Part shown: positions 5,102 to 35,399 of the stretch, piece by piece
Layout: each line of letters begins with the position of its first letter
Position numbering within the stretch: the stretch's first letter is position 1
NCBI GenBank assembly: GCA_030592645.1
Contig: JAUVIR010000021.1
Span: forward strand, 1 to 47,084
Source: Candidatus Fermentibacterota bacterium
GTDB taxonomy: Bacteria; Fermentibacterota; Fermentibacteria; Fermentibacterales; JCC-6
DNA: 47,084 nucleotides
Reading direction: 5' to 3'
The notes under the pieces: model-generated
Database searches by the model: none
What the model was told of the DNA's origin: nothing
Seen by the model: only the letters and a program-made list of their open reading frames with translations
Program-made: the position numbers and the translations under genes

Positions 5102-7297
5102 CTATCTGAGAACAGTAAAATATCTGCTGGCTGTTTCACCGCCTGCGTTGATACATGCAATGTAGATCCCCGATGGAAGATCTCCCAGCCTGATATCATA
5201 TTGTCCCGGTGAACAGATGCTGCTGAAGGGCTTGGTTACCAGTCGTCCGGACATATCGTAAATATTCAACTGGACATCGGATTGCGTTAAAAGCTGAAAA
5301 TGTACCGTCGCATTACCGTCTGAGGGATTTGGAGATACTTCCATAAAGATAGCATCCATGTTTTCTTCTTCACTGAGGCCCGCAGAGGAGAAATTGAATA
5401 TCTGCAAACCGTTACTTTGGCAGGCAGCGAAGACAAGATCACCTGAGAATGCAACCCCTTCACCGTCAAAGGGTGGTGTGTAAAATCCGCAATGAAAAGG
5501 GTCTTCAGGATTTGAAATATCAACAAGGCGAATACCGGCACCATCAGCGGTTATGCAGGCGTAGTCACCGGAAATCACTAATCCTCTTACAGTCCCGGTA
5601 AAAGAGCAGGAACCCACCAGAACCGGGTCTGACGGGGAGGAAATATCAATCACCGTTAAAGATTGACCGCCGATAACATATGCGAAGTTTCCAACGATCT
5701 CCACACGAGATGCCGCTACATAGGTAAAACCAAGAGAAACAGGATTTGAGGGTGTGGAAACATCCAGTATTCTAAGGGTGTTGCTATCGATGGTAATGCA
5801 GACAATATCGCCGGCTGAAGCAACTCCGATGGTGGAGCCGGTACAGAAATAGCTGCCGATTTCAGTGGGGTTAAAAGGGTCCGATATGTCTATTACACGG
5901 AGACCATCATCGTAGTTTGTCACGAAGGCATAATCTCCGGAGATGGAAACATCCCAGGCGTAAATCCCTGGAGTTTCACAGTAACCGGTCTCCACTGGAT
6001 TTGAAGGAGTTGATACATCAATGATGTGTAAGCCATCATAGACATCCACCACATATGCGTAATCCCCCGAAACCTCCACTTGTACGGCATCAAGAGCCGC
6101 ATCGCAAAATCCCACCTGAAAAGAAGCAGAGGGGCTGGATACATCAATCAAACGGAGGCCATCGTCATGCGCTGCAACATAGGCAAGCCCATCTGTTACA
6201 GCTAAACCTCTTGCATAACCCGGAGTATTGAATGTACCTAGCAGAACAGGTGCTGCCGGGATGCATACATCTATCGCCCAGATACCATCAAGGTCGCTGA
6301 TGAACACAGAATTGCCGGATACTGCTATGCCCCTGGCATTTCCTGAAGTATCGTAATTCCCGACTACCACAGGATTTGAAGGAGTTGATACATCAATCAC
6401 AGCGAGACCGTCTGAGGCGTTCGCAATGTATACATGATCACCTGAGACCTCCACACCATGTGCATCCCTTGTTAGGAAGCAGGATCCCACCGCAGTTGGA
6501 TTTGAAGGTGAGGAAATATCTATTACACGGAGTCCGTAACCACCGTTTGCGATATAGGCATATTGCCCTGCTGTCACAACATCCTCTGCTGAATAAGATG
6601 AGATGCACGACCCAACTTCAGTGGGATCTGCCGGGGCAGATACATCAATTACCCGCAGACCTCCATATCCTGCAGCAAGATATACGTAGTTACCTGTTTT
6701 GGTTACTGTATTTATGAAGTAGCTTGAGTATTCCAGGAACCCGACTTCAACCGGATCCGAGGGTGTGGACACATCGATCACCCGGAGTCCGTCTGAAATA
6801 TCTGCGATGTATGCAAAACCATCAGAGGCAACAACGCTCCTGGCAATGCCCGGAGTGGAACAGGTTCCTAATATGAACGGATTTTCGGGATCCTGTACAT
6901 CCCATATTTCAAGCCCCATATGACTCACTGCAAGGTATAGTCTCTGTGTTGATTCTTCGTAGAACAGCCCGAGAACATTATCTCTGGCGTGTATCTGCTT
7001 AGAGAGAGGAACCGGTGGAGTTGATAGCAGGGAATCAAGAATGTAGACTCCGCCTCCTGCACCGCAGAAAGTCAGACCTCTTGAATGATCCACAGCAGTA
7101 TTGTATGCGACACTGAATGGCCAGCTGCCTGCAAATTCCACATTCAATGAATCCCTGCTTTGAATGTCTGTGAGCCTTGAGAATAGTACTTCTTCATGAT
7201 CTGAATAAGAAAATATCAGGCTGCTGGTCTGATGTTCAGAGCCTTCACCTGAAGCAGAATGAGAGAATACTGTCAGAATCAACAACATGCAGTACAT
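5102..7297 (-). CDS. Secreted LVIVD-repeat protein with T9SS-type C-terminal sorting domain
   Basis: A 731-residue exported protein. The N-terminus has a short hydrophobic signal (MYCMLLILTVFSHSASG). From about residue 130 to 630 there are about 12 repeats of about 42 residues, each with the core LRVIDVSTPSDPVEVG followed by a G-D-YAY segment: the LVIVD repeat, which builds beta-propellers. A 13th, partial copy (LQIFNFSS) leads into the tail. The last about 75 residues (VSPNPSDGNATVHF, NIYDMSGRLV, LPSGIYIA) match the Por/T9SS sorting domain, so it is probably surface attached or released. LVIVD proteins are common in this phylum, but their ligands are unknown. It stands alone, convergent with the YchF-like gene. 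Confidence 0.88.
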   Translation of the reverse strand: MYCMLLILTVFSHSASGEGSEHQTSSLIFSYSDHEEVLFSRLTDIQSRDSLNVEFAGSWPFSVAYNTAVDHSRGLTFCGAGGGVYILDSLLSTPPVPLSKQIHARDNVLGLFYEESTQRLYLAVSHMGLEIWDVQDPENPFILGTCSTPGIARSVVASDGFAYIADISDGLRVIDVSTPSDPVEVGFLEYSSYFINTVTKTGNYVYLAAGYGGLRVIDVSAPADPTEVGSCISSYSAEDVVTAGQYAYIANGGYGLRVIDISSPSNPTAVGSCFLTRDAHGVEVSGDHVYIANASDGLAVIDVSTPSNPVVVGNYDTSGNARGIAVSGNSVFISDLDGIWAIDVCIPAAPVLLGTFNTPGYARGLAVTDGLAYVAAHDDGLRLIDVSSPSASFQVGFCDAALDAVQVEVSGDYAYVVDVYDGLHIIDVSTPSNPVETGYCETPGIYAWDVSISGDYAFVTNYDDGLRVIDISDPFNPTEIGSYFCTGSTIGVASAGDIVCITIDSNTLRILDVSTPSNPVSLGFTYVAASRVEIVGNFAYVIGGQSLTVIDISSPSDPVLVGSCSFTGTVRGLVISGDYACITADGAGIRLVDISNPEDPFHCGFYTPPFDGEGVAFSGDLVFAACQSNGLQIFNFSSAGLSEEENMDAIFMEVSPNPSDGNATVHFQLLTQSDVQLNIYDMSGRLVTKPFSSICSPGQYDIRLGDLPSGIYIACINAGGETASRYFTVLR

Positions 7298-22633: not shown

Positions 22634-23091
22634 TGACGAGAGCGTACAAGGTTTATTCAATAGAAAACGGTACTGTGATCGATCATATTCCTACTCCGCT
22701 TGCCCTTATAGTTATCCGAATACTTGGACTTGAGAATGAGGGAATAATGACGATCGGGATCGGCTTCAACTCCGAGAAGCATCCTCGCGGCAAAGATATT
22801 CTTAAGATCGAAAACCGGGAACTCTCTTACGAAGAGACGGATAAGATCGCCCTTATCGCCCCCGACGCGACCATCAATATCATCAAGAACGGTGAAGTAT
22901 CAGAAAAGAGGCAGATCACACTGCCCTCGGAAGTCAGAGATATACTCACCTGCCCCAATCCCAACTGTGCCACCAACAAACTGGGAGCAAGAAAACACTT
23001 CCTGCTCGAGAATAGAGATACAGTAACGTACAGATGTGTATACTGCGAAAGAGCCACTGTAGTAAATGCGGATATGCTTGCATCAAAGTGA
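22633..23091 (+). CDS. pyrI: Aspartate carbamoyltransferase regulatory chain
   Basis: A 152-residue allosteric subunit that binds ATP/CTP and links catalytic trimers through a zinc domain. It shows the N-terminal allosteric fold (VYSIENGTVIDHIPTPLALIVIRILGL) and a four-cysteine zinc site at C107, C112, C135 and C138 (CPNPNCATN, then YRCVYCER). It overlaps pyrB by one base, with GGAGGG upstream. This indicates a class B, enterobacterial-type PyrB6I6 holoenzyme. It is the last gene before a hairpin shared with the convergent micro-ORF unit. Confidence 0.96.
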   Translation: MTRAYKVYSIENGTVIDHIPTPLALIVIRILGLENEGIMTIGIGFNSEKHPRGKDILKIENRELSYEETDKIALIAPDATINIIKNGEVSEKRQITLPSEVRDILTCPNPNCATNKLGARKHFLLENRDTVTYRCVYCERATVVNADMLASK

Positions 23092-23133
23092 GATATTACT
23101 GAATACCGATAATCCAGCTTCCTGATGGAATAA

Positions 23134-23160
23134 GGGCCGGAGCAGTGAATGCTCCGGCCC
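23134..23160 (-). terminator. Strong GC hairpin between pyrI and the micro-ORF unit
   Basis: GGGCCGGAGC (23134-23143) and GCTCCGGCCC (23151-23160) form a perfect 10-bp stem with a 7-base loop. In the minus direction it is followed by TTATTCC, in the plus direction by CGTCCTTATAGG. It can end the micro-ORF transcript, and probably also pyrBI from the other side. The minus-strand side is slightly more terminator-like. Confidence 0.7.
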
Positions 23161-23181
23161 CGTCCTTATAGGGAGAACAGG

Positions 23182-23223
23182 CTAGGCCTTACCCTCCCCG
23201 CATTTGTATTTATTTCCTACCAT
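23182..23223 (-). CDS. Micro-ORF 2, 13-residue peptide
   Basis: ATG at 23223 down to TAG at 23182 encodes MVGNKYKCGEGKA. The ribosome binding site is near-ideal, AGAGGAGGTGCAC directly before the ATG, and matches the site of the micro-ORF 83 bases upstream. The reading frame ends in GGCCTAG, as does its neighbour. It lies between the first micro-ORF and the 23134-23160 hairpin. I do not recognise the peptide. It has one cysteine, is basic, and has no signal sequence. It may be a peptide signal, a RiPP-like precursor, a regulatory leader or part of a dual-function RNA. Confidence 0.5.
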   Translation of the reverse strand: MVGNKYKCGEGKA

Positions 23224-23264
23224 GTGCACCTCCTCTGTTGGGGTTTCGGATATAGAGGGCTGAT

Positions 23265-23306
23265 CTAGGCCAGCACCTCCGTGCGTATGCCCTTCCCTTT
23301 CCTCAT
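23265..23306 (-). CDS. Micro-ORF 1, 13-residue peptide
   Basis: ATG at 23306 down to TAG at 23265 encodes MRKGKGIRTEVLA. It has AAAGGAGGTGCAC immediately before the ATG, about as strong a Shine-Dalgarno as the window contains. It has exactly the same length (13 codons plus TAG) as the second micro-ORF. When aligned the two share M1, K5, E10 and A13, plus the GGCC-TAG end. It is the first ORF of a transcript expected to start near 23333. The product is unrecognised and strongly basic at its N-terminal half. Confidence 0.5.
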   Translation of the reverse strand: MRKGKGIRTEVLA

Positions 23307-23339
23307 GTGCACCTCCTTTCGGTTGGAGTTGGTAGACCT

Positions 23340-23369
23340 AATAGAACAGAAAGCATGTTCATCTGTCAA
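23340..23369 (-). promoter_or_regulatory. Promoter of the micro-ORF unit
   Basis: On the minus strand TTGACA (23364-23369, perfect -35) is followed after 18 bases by TCTATT (23340-23345), or after 17 by TTCTAT. The first micro-ORF starts about 34 bases after the -10 box. The promoter lies in the 112-base gap downstream of the AAA ATPase stop, so the micro-ORF unit need not depend on that gene. Confidence 0.6.
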
Positions 23370-23418
23370 GTATGAATCACACCTGTCCGGGTGACCTTCC
23401 GCTGATATATCCGTCCTG

Positions 23419-24609
23419 TCATGGGCGCATTAGAAAATCCAGCAAATTGATATGCCTGATTCCATTTCGACCTTGAAACATCTTATCCATACTTATTACA
23501 GTTTTGGGATAGTTATCCTTTATCGTTTCAAGTGAATGAAACTCTCTTTCCACAGTTTCCGTTGAAGCAAGAAGGTAGGCAACCTGGAAATACTCCAATT
23601 CTCCTGATTTTTCGATGACAAAATCAACCTCACATCCCCCTGCACTACCGGTACTTACTCTAAAACCTCTTCGGTGAAATTCAAGAAACACAAGGTTCTC
23701 GAGTAATCCGGAAATGTCAGACTCTCTGTATCCGATAGATGCATTTCGAATCCCGAGATCATTTACATAGTATTTCGCTCCCAGTTCGAGATGTTTTTTC
23801 CCTTTGATATCGTATCTGCCAACTCGATGAATCAGATAGGCATCTTCCATATGAGACAGGTAGTTTAATACTGTTTCCAACCCAATTGAAATGCGCTGGG
23901 ATTTGAAGAAATCAACTATTTTTTTCGCAGAGAGTATACTTCCAATATTGTCAAATACGAAAGCACACACTCTACGCAGAAGCTGTACATTCCTTATACT
24001 GTATCTCTGCACAATATCCCTCAGTAGAACTGAATCAAAGACAGACTCAAGATATCTTGTGAATACTTCCTTATCAGGACTGAACTGATGCAGACCGGGA
24101 AGCCCTCCGAACTTTATGTAGTCCTGAATATCAGCTTCATTGTCGCTGAATTCAATATACTCAGGATAGCTCAAACCATTAACTTCTATTTCTATGAACC
24201 TTCCGGTGAGCAGGGAGGCCAGTTCTCCGGAAAGAAGCCTGGCGTTGGATCCACTGACAACAACATCAAATTCCGGTCTTTTGATAAGGGATACAACAGC
24301 TTTTTCCCAGTGTTCAATTTCCTGGACTTCATCAATGAGAAGAAGAACCGACTTCGCGCCTTCAGGGATTTGAACCTTCACCTCTTCCATTAAATGGTGA
24401 TAATTTCTAACGTGATCGAATGAGTAATCTTCCTTATCAATGAAACAGACATTCCTGTAAATATCTCTGCGTCTAGCAAGTAGTCGCATAATACTAGTCT
24501 TACCCGTACGCCTCATTCCAGTGATAACCTTCACAAGCGGTTTCTGCAGGAAGGGCTCAATTCTGCTCATGCATATTCTTCTATCATACAAGACGCTTTC
24601 GTGTATCAT
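23419..24609 (-). CDS. AAA family ATPase with DUF4143 domain
   Basis: A 396-residue P-loop ATPase of the AAA_14/DUF4143 family. Walker A is ITGMRRTGKTSIM (about residues 29-41) and Walker B is SVLLLIDEVQEIE. A sensor-like VVSGSNARLLSGE and GRFIEIEVNGLSYPEY follow. The C-terminal DUF4143 half carries a nuclease-like stretch (HRRGFRVSTGSAGGCEVDFVIEKSGELEYFQVAY) with the conserved E-VDFV and the E-Y-FQVA strand. Such genes are common, scattered accessory genes of unknown function, often mobile between genomes. AAAGGATG precedes the ATG, next to a small CTTTCG/CGAAAG inverted repeat that might be an operator. The gene is monocistronic. Confidence 0.85.
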   Translation of the reverse strand: MIHESVLYDRRICMSRIEPFLQKPLVKVITGMRRTGKTSIMRLLARRRDIYRNVCFIDKEDYSFDHVRNYHHLMEEVKVQIPEGAKSVLLLIDEVQEIEHWEKAVVSLIKRPEFDVVVSGSNARLLSGELASLLTGRFIEIEVNGLSYPEYIEFSDNEADIQDYIKFGGLPGLHQFSPDKEVFTRYLESVFDSVLLRDIVQRYSIRNVQLLRRVCAFVFDNIGSILSAKKIVDFFKSQRISIGLETVLNYLSHMEDAYLIHRVGRYDIKGKKHLELGAKYYVNDLGIRNASIGYRESDISGLLENLVFLEFHRRGFRVSTGSAGGCEVDFVIEKSGELEYFQVAYLLASTETVEREFHSLETIKDNYPKTVISMDKMFQGRNGIRHINLLDFLMRP

Positions 24610-33124: not shown

Positions 33125-35311
33125 TTAATAGCCCACAACAACTAATTGTCTTGTCTGTCTGAGATCCGGTGCGTCAATAACGAAGAAATAGAGTCCTCCG
33201 GGTACGATATCTCCGCCCGAATCGCGGCAGTCCCAGTTCAGATTATGTGATCCCGCCGCTGCGATCCCGGATGAAAGGTCCCGGATCTGTCTTCCCGAAA
33301 GATCGTAAACAACAAGTGATACCGAGCCTTCAGCAGCAGTTGAGATCGTCACGGGGATCGAAGTCATACCGGAAGCGGGATTGGGGCTGAACTGACCAAT
33401 ATGGGTTATACCGGCACCAGTCAAACCTTCCGAGATACCGGTTGTAGATACTTGTGCCAGAACGGCATCGGAAGGCCAGCCGGCACCGAATTCGTTGTCA
33501 ATCGCCCAGACCCTGAAGTAGTACTCACCATTATTAAGAGAGTTTATTGTGTACTGCGAACCCGCAATATTGTCTGACTGAATTACATTACTATCCCAGA
33601 CCTCGATCTTGATGTCATCTATGTAGAGCTTGCAGCTTGAGCTGCTTCCGTAGCTCTCCCAGCGGAACATCAGTGTCTGCCCCTGGAATTCATCGAGCTC
33701 ATGGATATTGAAGCGCCAGGTCATGTCATCGCGTCCGAATGTCTGGAGATAGTACCAGTTCGCACCGGCATCGGGACTGTAGGAGAAGGCTCCCTGGTAA
33801 CTCTGAGGGGTTATATCCTGCTCTGACCAGAAGCTGATCCTTCCGCCGCCATTGGCCGGAATGGTCACCGATTCCTGCCAGGTCATGTGACCTGTTCCGT
33901 TCGAGACGTAGCACTGAGTACCGCTGTGATGCTGGCTGGTGGTAATGATCCAGTTAACTTTGTCAAAGGGACCGCTATCACCGTGGTCATCCAGAAGCAG
34001 CTGGTAGCCGGAGAGTCTCTGAAGAGCGTAGTAATCAGCATCGGCAGCATCATTCCAGTTGATGGTAAAGGGCACGCTCACAGAACCGATGGCGTCTATC
34101 ACCGGCACTCCCGGCTCATGCGGATCGTACTGGCAGCCGGCAAGACATGCAGTTACAAGGTAGCTTCTGAGATTTCTCCTTGAAAGCTTAACAACCTCTG
34201 TGGCAGAAGGCCAGAATCCTGCAAAGCTAGCTCCGGTTTCGTGATTCCAGCTCATGGCTCCGTGAACACCGTAAGCATGATCCCGGGTGTTACCGGCAGA
34301 TGGGCCAAAGTAGTACGAGATATAATGTTCCTCACCGGTGGCCCACTGAACCATCATCTCACCCTGGGTACTGTAGGCTGCTGCATGTGTGGTCGGGGAG
34401 CTGGTCCAGCCCCATGGATAGATAAGAACATTGCTGTAAGTATGCGTGGAATGCATCTGGGCAGGAACATGACTCTGCCAGAAGGTATCGATGTTGGAAC
34501 TTTCCGGTTCTGAAAGCGGACCTGTCCCTCTGTATGTCTGGGAATTGGGATCTCCGCTGGAACCAGCGCCGCCCCAGTCAACCGACCAGTTCCTGTTCAG
34601 ATCGATACCATCACCGCCAGCGGTCCAGTTCATGTTCTTCCTGTGCATTCCGCCGCCGCCGGGTGAGATACTCTGATTGTACACCCAGCCGTCAACATTG
34701 TTCACAGGAAGACACCATATTTCTCTGTTTTCAAGAAGCCATGTCGCCTGGTATCCGTTGTAACCATTACGCTCGTAGTTCGAGCAGAGCCACATCATCC
34801 AGTAGCGGACGTTTCTCATGGCAGCACCTTCGCGGGCATGGATAAGACCATCGTACCAGGCGTTGGCCATGGCTGGGTCATCGTCGTTGAAGTTGTTGTT
34901 CACGGAAATTTTCACTACCCTCTGAGGACGGTTCTGATAGGTGTTTCCGATGGATTGAACGCTAGTGATGGAGGGGTTGGCAGCCACAAGCGAATCGATC
35001 CAGACGCTTACTTCATCCCAGGTGTAGAATCCGCCCATTGAACGGCTGGTGCCGTTGCGGGCCTGGTAGTAAGCCTGCATATCCGTAATTTTTGTTGTGG
35101 CAGAGAGACCGTTATCAAGCAGTATCATGCGCTCGTAGGAGTTGGCAACAAAATCGACTGAACCATCTTCATGAATCTGCACAACTTCAAAAGCGAGACT
35201 TCTGAAGAGTTCAGCCTGAGCACCGGATGAGGGCTGAAAATTCATAAGTGAATAAATTTCTGCGGAAACAAGAGTTACCGCTACGAATAGAAACAGCATA
35301 ACCTTTCTCAT
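33125..35311 (-). CDS. Secreted M14 zinc carboxypeptidase with T9SS-type sorting domain
   Basis: About 728 residues from the ATG at 35311, which has AAGGAGAAGG upstream. The signal peptide is MRKVMLFLFVAVTLVSA, and a propeptide-like region of about 85 residues follows. The M14 domain (about residues 93-400) has zinc ligands in GLIHAREG (His158, Glu161) and QMHSTHTYSN, the substrate-binding DLNRNW, and the likely catalytic Glu in SWNHETG. A jelly-roll region (ITTSQHHSGTQCYVSNGTG, RFNIHELDEFQGQTLMFRW) and a fibronectin-III-like module come next. The last 75 residues (FSPNPASGMTSIPV, LVVYDLSGRQIRDL, VPGGLYFFVI) are a sorting domain. It probably digests peptides outside the cell. Confidence 0.92.
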   Translation of the reverse strand: MRKVMLFLFVAVTLVSAEIYSLMNFQPSSGAQAELFRSLAFEVVQIHEDGSVDFVANSYERMILLDNGLSATTKITDMQAYYQARNGTSRSMGGFYTWDEVSVWIDSLVAANPSITSVQSIGNTYQNRPQRVVKISVNNNFNDDDPAMANAWYDGLIHAREGAAMRNVRYWMMWLCSNYERNGYNGYQATWLLENREIWCLPVNNVDGWVYNQSISPGGGGMHRKNMNWTAGGDGIDLNRNWSVDWGGAGSSGDPNSQTYRGTGPLSEPESSNIDTFWQSHVPAQMHSTHTYSNVLIYPWGWTSSPTTHAAAYSTQGEMMVQWATGEEHYISYYFGPSAGNTRDHAYGVHGAMSWNHETGASFAGFWPSATEVVKLSRRNLRSYLVTACLAGCQYDPHEPGVPVIDAIGSVSVPFTINWNDAADADYYALQRLSGYQLLLDDHGDSGPFDKVNWIITTSQHHSGTQCYVSNGTGHMTWQESVTIPANGGGRISFWSEQDITPQSYQGAFSYSPDAGANWYYLQTFGRDDMTWRFNIHELDEFQGQTLMFRWESYGSSSSCKLYIDDIKIEVWDSNVIQSDNIAGSQYTINSLNNGEYYFRVWAIDNEFGAGWPSDAVLAQVSTTGISEGLTGAGITHIGQFSPNPASGMTSIPVTISTAAEGSVSLVVYDLSGRQIRDLSSGIAAAGSHNLNWDCRDSGGDIVPGGLYFFVIDAPDLRQTRQLVVVGY

Positions 35312-35399
35312 AATTACCTTCTCCTTGTGAAAGAAAACACGTTGATTATTATTCAACATACTAAATCAGTTATTATGAATATATACAGTGGAGGTTTTC

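Follow-up and report, generated by a model that had tools for sequence, protein, structure and literature searches.

The unit on the minus strand at positions 23134-23369 of the window, by which we mean the whole stretch of 47,084 nucleotides that was analyzed, is, as judged from sequence comparison, a real and conserved element without an Rfam match and, in our reading, a variant of the translated small RNAs. We give about an even chance to the view that it is a free-standing small RNA, translated and structured, whose ribosome loading and folding would be selected more than its peptides. What comparison between genomes brings out is that the unit is conserved, that its ribosome-binding (SD) sequences are strong, that starts, stops, frames and pairing are kept, and that amino-acid constraint is weak at most.

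Layout of the unit

Read directly from the sequence, the unit comprises two micro-ORFs, a -35 box and a terminal hairpin, all on the minus strand, as are the features described below. ORF1 (MRKGKGIRTEVLA, 23265-23306) and ORF2 (MVGNKYKCGEGKA, 23182-23223) each consist of 13 codons followed by TAG and are found in 11 and 12 of the 12 copies, respectively. Their starts lie 83 bases apart and AGGAGGTGCAC precedes both, while a repeat search finds CATGTGCACCTCCT twice, again with a spacing of 83. The TTGACA box, the two 13-codon ORFs, the distance between their starts and the shared translation signal thus all read as an earlier note on this DNA had claimed. Two features were absent from that description, namely a third GGAGGTGC located within ORF1 (23280-23273), where it is overlapped by the first of the hairpins described below, and the conserved RNA folds.

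The boundaries of the putative transcript are less clear-cut. The -35 box TTGACA (23364-23369) is separated by an 18-base spacer from a putative -10 element, TCTATT (23340-23345). TTGAC is present in all 11 copies having both ORFs, paired at a spacing of 17-18 nt with TCTATT in ten of them and with TAGACT in one. At the other end, the unit is closed by a GC-rich hairpin of 11 bp (23134-23160), a probable terminator whose first six pairs are identical in 11/11 copies. The promoter and the 10-bp hairpin terminator that the earlier note had proposed consequently stand in part. The -35 box and the terminal hairpin are there and are kept in 11/11 copies, but the -10 element is poor, the stem is one of 11 bp followed by a weak T tail (TTATT), and neither end is called by mechanical scans, the sigma-70 scan returning no promoter in 22950-23500 and the terminator scan passing over the hairpin. 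This is what we find regarding an own transcript, which is a criterion for dual-function sRNAs.

Distribution and genomic context

BLAST of the region gave matches in 13 of 40 genomes, its own included, one of which (G018) matches through the terminal hairpin only. With a covariance model, R1, 12 of the 42 genomes of the phylum turn out to carry the unit, 11 of these 12 with both ORFs. All carriers belong to one order (ten to one genus, one to another genus of the same family and one to another family), and the unit sits at differing genomic places between them. Since five same-genus genomes that are at least 94% complete (G001, G005, G007, G011 and G018) go without it, the unit is dispensable. 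No convincing match was seen in the 343 genomes outside the phylum among 385 searched with R1, a search in which 7 candidates per genome were scored with stricter filters, against 66 per genome in the phylum search. The five weak matches that did appear there (per-genome E of 8e-4 to 0.0097) were rejected, four of them being little but the SD match and the fifth (L276) resembling the ORF2 hairpin region only.

In searches by pattern, a set of three GGAGGTGC occurs in at least 118 stretches of genome contigs and at least 120 stretches of viral contigs, and R1 found nothing convincing in 238 of these loci (none at E<=1 in 80, three partial matches with a best E of 0.044 in 100, none in 58). Pairs of SD and micro-ORF in tandem, found in 18 of the 238 loci, resemble repetitive sequence when judged by eye. 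The tandem-SD pattern also matches outside the unit within the phylum, where the three places that were inspected (L303, L291 and L313) were rejected. Of the 385 genomes, nine contain the leader pattern CAAC..AAC..GAAAGGAGGTG, and all nine are members of the same genus. Two places in G001 with this pattern (L330 and L339, position 28) correspond to an unrelated stretch with CAACTCAACGAAAGGAGGTGCGGG that is common to two contig ends and may mark where a repeated element terminates.

Two genomes hold incomplete versions. In G017 (L289, unit at 5174-5366), about 57 bases have been lost, from SD1 to the ORF1 stop, while the promoter, ORF2 and the terminal hairpin remain. In G018 (L290, near 1312-1354), which is not among the 12 carriers, the terminal hairpin stands alone beside a downstream flank like that of G006 (83% identical over 675 bases), with the break near the junction between the second ORF hairpin and the terminal hairpin. 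These two cases, together with the patchy occurrence in 12/42 genomes and the positions that differ between genomes, are what might be left of a mobile element, be it decaying or neutral. We consider such an origin very unlikely, as pairing and frames are conserved in three genera of two families, comparison of G006, G017 and G018 reveals no defined ends, and plasmid and phage collections contain no match to the unit.

The flanks of the unit are equally varied. A ruvB/queH cluster lies upstream in G000, G003, G012 and G014, another upstream cluster is common to G006 and G017 and partly present in G004, and the remaining flanks differ. Clustering of the proteins encoded in the fetched flanks, which are of unequal length, yields no family common to all 12 copies, the commonest cluster being found in 7/12. 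In the window, an AAA_14/DUF4143 ATPase is encoded directly upstream (23419-24609, minus strand), and, among the fetched flanks, those of G010 are the only others with a protein of that cluster ahead of the unit. Elsewhere in the window, two minus-strand genes encode proteins with C-terminal sorting-type tails, an LVIVD-repeat protein with a Por_Secre_tail domain (5102-7297) and an M14 carboxypeptidase with a FlgD_ig domain (33125-35359).

Downstream, the next gene of the window is pyrI, which is convergent to the unit, as translations show it to be in G014 as well. Because downstream frames vary between copies and, according to automatic ORF calling and translations, converge on the unit in at least 6 of 12 (G000, G003, G006, G012, G014 and G017), the unit is not the leader of a fixed gene. 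This bears on the idea of a cis-acting attenuator, in which leader peptides and a terminator would control a downstream gene and which the short ORFs, the stop-containing hairpins and the terminal hairpin do resemble. At the window locus this is contradicted by the convergent orientation of pyrI, and with the differing and often convergent frames of the other copies we regard it as highly improbable for the unit at large.

Strength of the ribosome-binding sites

Each ORF is preceded by a long complement of the 16S 3' tail. SD1, GAAAGGAGGTG (23310-23320), matches the tail over 11 nt, and SD2, AGGAGGTGCAC, occupies 23224-23234. The duplexes of the window copy amount to -19.4 kcal/mol for SD1 and -15.8 kcal/mol for SD2. 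Both are stronger than those of every one of the 42 open frames examined in the window (150 codons or longer), the best of which reaches -13.6 with the best start allowed for each frame, in a comparison scored on an assumed 16S tail. The tail GGATCACCTCCTTTCT was read in 5/5 full-length 16S loci of the phylum, which come from five genomes (G001, G005, G011, G022 and G026) none of which carries the unit; the window's own assembly gave no 16S match. The 16S matches of five further genomes (G003, G007, G008, G020 and G024; L347-L351) are split near model position 873. Duplex strength is nearly constant between copies, at -19.2 to -19.5 in 11/11 for SD1 and -15.8 to -16.2 in 12/12 for SD2. Moreover, GGAGGTGCACATG is found just twice in the 2.58-Mb assembly, both times within the unit. 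The two SDs of the unit are more than chance.

Frames are kept while much of the peptides drifts

The ORFs behind these SDs are stable in their outline. ORF1 starts with ATG in 11/11 copies and has 13 codons in ten of them and 12 in G009, G017 being the copy from which it is deleted. ORF2 starts with ATG in 11 copies and with TTG in one, and has 13 codons in 12/12, followed by TAG in seven and TAA in five. Across copies, the stops of both ORFs are only TAG or TAA. In diverged copies, the distance from SD to hairpin is shifted by -2 or +2 bases, and starts, stops and lengths are nevertheless retained. The distance from SD1 to the inner GGAGGTGC is 36 in the window copy, 34 in G009 and 38 in both G020 and G028, while that from the ATG is 26, 23, 26 and 26, respectively, so that the frame is retained. 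When spacers were shuffled, an ORF that was intact, in frame and properly spaced at its start arose in 2.3-3.3% of cases for ORF1 and 2.7-4.0% for ORF2 (9.6% for ORF2 of G009 with three starts allowed), percentages that are not to be multiplied since the copies share ancestry; the real ORFs are intact in 22 of 22 cases in 11 copies. That both ORFs are under selection to be translated is supported by this comparison of copies.

The amino acids behave differently. The minimum number of changes at the three codon positions is 8, 11 and 10 for ORF1 (the ten copies that agree in length) and 12, 12 and 13 for ORF2 (12 copies), and among close copies alone it is 2, 3 and 4 (eight copies) and 4, 5 and 5 (nine copies). 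Since changes are spread about evenly over the three positions, amino-acid constraint on the peptides is, on this count, weak at most. Amino acids exchange freely at ORF1 codons 3-7 and at the majority of codons in ORF2. Those ORF1 codons that vary least sit in one arm of an RNA hairpin, where changes are paired, codons 8-13 being in the hairpin. Pairwise single-base codon differences between close copies, for which no neutral expectation was fitted, give synonymous to non-synonymous ratios of 28:35 for ORF1 and 41:93 for ORF2, and the former may hint at a mild constraint on the peptide. The comparison of synonymous with non-synonymous change that the earlier note had suggested is two-sided, the even spread over codon positions speaking against peptide constraint and the ORF1 ratio leaving room for it.

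These numbers bear directly on what the unit would produce. The earlier note had suggested that the peptides are made and used, and the first half of this proposal fares well, translation being backed by the starts, stops, lengths and frames kept in diverged copies, while their use as signals, RiPP-like precursors or regulators finds little encouragement in codon-position counts of 8/11/10 and 12/12/13. A unit whose product is the two 13-residue peptides, with RNA folds controlling their dose only, would also account for the kept frames, lengths, starts and stops, and strong SDs would suit peptide production. A Glu at codon 10 (codon 9 in the 12-codon ORF1 of G009), constant in both peptides and in all copies, once despite a synonymous change from GAG to GAA (ORF2 of G010), points the same way, as does the 28:35 ratio of ORF1. 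We nevertheless think a peptide product rather unlikely, given the even codon-position changes with free exchange at many codons, the location of ORF1 codons 8-13 within an RNA hairpin, and the lack of a protein family common to the fetched flanks of all 12 copies.

RNA folding

The structure, drawn from the window copy, was evaluated over 11 copies and 506 pair cells, of which 93.5% keep their pairing. Two-sided changes occur in ten cells, where shuffles average 3.9 and are as high in 1 of 500 cases, and at six pairs, where shuffles average 3.0; the latter is a modest excess (16 of 500 as high). The covariation score is 0.166 against 0.139 for shuffles, none of 500 being as high, while the number of further pair types shows no excess (218 of 500 as high). 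Slid control structures all score lower, in a control that favors a structure written from one of the rows, and several helices hardly vary between copies. With the terminal hairpin left out, the fold z score is -0.75 for the window copy, -0.93 for G028, -1.06 for G012 and between -1.97 and -3.35 in the other 8 of 11.

The predicted helices involve both SDs, the ORF2 start and the two stops. A mini-hairpin, CUCC/GGAG (23313-23328), masks SD1 in predicted folds, with 88.6% of cells paired and no two-sided change; its U-A pair is lost in three diverged copies, two of which fold CCC/GGG in its place. The probability that SD1 is unpaired is at most 0.05 in 10/11 copies and 0.38 in G020. The 5' leader CUACCA (23330-23335) pairs with 23222-23217 over the ORF2 start, a helix present in the MFE folds of 9/11 copies (absent in G009 and G020) and in which one A-U pair becomes G-C in 2/11. 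The GUGCAC of SD2 pairs with 23312-23307, this helix being 98.5% paired with one-sided changes only. Hairpin 1 (23255-23279), which holds the ORF1 stop in its loop, is paired in 96.6% of cells, with one U-A pair replaced by both C-G and A-U, and is beaten in several MFE folds, including that of the window copy, by a competing GCAC[GGAG]GUGC hairpin. Hairpin 2 (23171-23198), with the ORF2 stop in its loop, is paired in 87.6% of cells, one pair being changed on both sides in two sequences. The terminal hairpin is paired in 97.5% of cells and has two-sided changes at three pairs.

Conserved pairing of this kind, kept with double changes, might also be that of a structured non-coding RNA with a binding partner, be it the 16S tail or a protein. 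Its SD-like and hairpin motifs would then serve binding, and the ORFs would arise from them as by-products. The three copies of GGAGGTGC, one of which overlaps a hairpin, and a complement to the 16S tail of up to 11 nt would fit such binding. By-products of this sort would hardly retain start, stop and frame despite length changes not divisible by three, and the swaps between TAG and TAA and between ATG and TTG are those that translation tolerates. Covariation without conservation of frames had been named in the earlier note as a sign of a non-coding RNA; frame and pairing are both kept, and we judge this explanation unlikely. In one version of it, the RNA would sequester CsrA, as do sponges of the CsrB/RsmY type, which have several GGA motifs in one short RNA. 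The unit has several GGA motifs too, but this version is excluded, as the CsrA family PF02599 matches 0 of 42 phylum genomes, with 3 of 14 control genomes positive.

A masked SD combined with long-range pairing of the 5' end is also reminiscent of type I toxin mRNAs. The peptides are, by eye, hydrophilic and charged, and they change freely, which leaves a toxin-like mRNA extremely improbable. No sigma-70-like antisense promoter was called, which counts for little, since the same scan also fails to call the promoter of the unit itself.

Proposed mechanism

To return to the translated small RNA that we favor, translation seems to matter more than the peptides, because starts, stops and RNA folding are kept while much of the peptides drifts. 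Its transcription and translation, and the switch and trans output outlined here, we infer from these comparisons. The gene would give rise to a small RNA some 200 nt long, with two translation modules in tandem and a terminal hairpin that closes the unit. Each module would have a sequence strongly complementary to the 16S tail, then a start codon and 13 codons, with the stop codon placed in the loop of a hairpin. As long as the RNA is free, the small hairpin would mask SD1 and the 5' end would pair over the ORF2 start. Once this fold opens, 30S subunits would bind strongly, translate the 13 codons and reach the stops within the hairpins. The output under selection would then be ribosome loading and the resulting change of fold, more than the peptides. 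It might act either by holding initiating ribosomes (30S titration) or by freeing the CU-rich hairpin arms for other RNAs. Predictions for a simple relay, in which a ribosome on ORF1 would open ORF2, are mixed. A ribosome placed in silico on AUG1 leaves SD2 less open in 8/11 copies, unchanged in two and more open in one, while a ribosome at the ORF1 stop leaves SD2 more open in 8/11 and about unchanged in three, with changes at AUG2 in two only.

Short ORFs are mostly judged by the conservation of their peptides. Here, much of the peptide changes between copies, yet start, stop, length, frame and fold are kept, and translation is thereby suggested as the possible function of an independent small RNA.

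Comparison with known systems

Among known RNAs, Rfam gave one match at gathering score over the whole window, a tRNA, and the unit lies below the cut-off of every family. A literature search, judged by titles and abstract openings and with most subscription papers lying outside it, found no description of such a unit.

SgrS and SR1 are dual-function or peptide-coding small RNAs. VcdRP belongs to the same group according to excerpts of PMC8672173, and excerpts of PMC5521070 place ORFs of 10-50 aa in the majority of annotated sRNAs. The unit is like SgrS, SR1 and VcdRP in carrying a small ORF on what would be a short RNA of its own, but it differs from them in its two tandem 13-codon ORFs behind strong 16S-tail complements and in a peptide sequence that is largely unkept. 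Minigenes provide another comparison, such as lambda bar, which has an SD. Of the same kind is the mg2 mini-ORF of axe-txe, a very short ORF after an SD in which, in the part of PMC8708949 available, ribosome binding or translation, and not the peptide, is proposed to matter. The minigenes described in that part of the source (PMC8708949) are of two codons or encode a hexapeptide and lie inside longer mRNAs, in contrast to 13 codons, twice, on what would be a transcript of its own.

The closest parallel in layout is CC2171 (RF01867), a Caulobacter sRNA that was also encountered here in other Alphaproteobacteria and is known from an original report; no function was found in the literature under that name, the original report lying outside that search. 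Its model gives a faint full-length match on the unit (12.3 bits, E 1.3-2, against a gathering score of 75). Applied to the whole loci of four relatives, the same model gives no match at E<=5, a weak negative since a 12-bit match would go unlisted at that search size, and R1 gives none at E<=1 on five CC2171 loci. These five are the best CC2171 matches in five of six alphaproteobacterial genomes (L315-L319), two of them over the gathering score and three below it at E 4.5e-11 to 2e-7. All five show CAAC.. followed by GAAAGGAGGTG (with a one-base change in one) and a micro-ORF that opens with GTG or ATG, encodes VSH or MSC at its start and runs to 23, 23, 14, 19 or 26 codons. Like the unit, CC2171 therefore has a strong 16S-tail complement followed by a variable micro-ORF, a feature observed here and lying outside Rfam's definition, and its Rfam model ends in a GC-rich hairpin. 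Unlike the unit, it has one module in place of two, with other codons and the VSH or MSC start. As far as sequence goes, the two are alike in layout without detectable homology, and they are not shown to be related.

If our account of the unit holds, it suggests a testable reading of CC2171, which may itself be a translated RNA and not a plain sRNA. Tentatively, there might even be a general kind of ribosome-engaging small RNA, a free-standing gene in which a near-complete complement of the 16S tail is followed by a micro-ORF of nearly irrelevant sequence, and whose translation gates, protects or titrates. The tandem unit of this phylum, with its stops in hairpin loops and its second module, and the alphaproteobacterial CC2171 would then be two unrelated instances of it.
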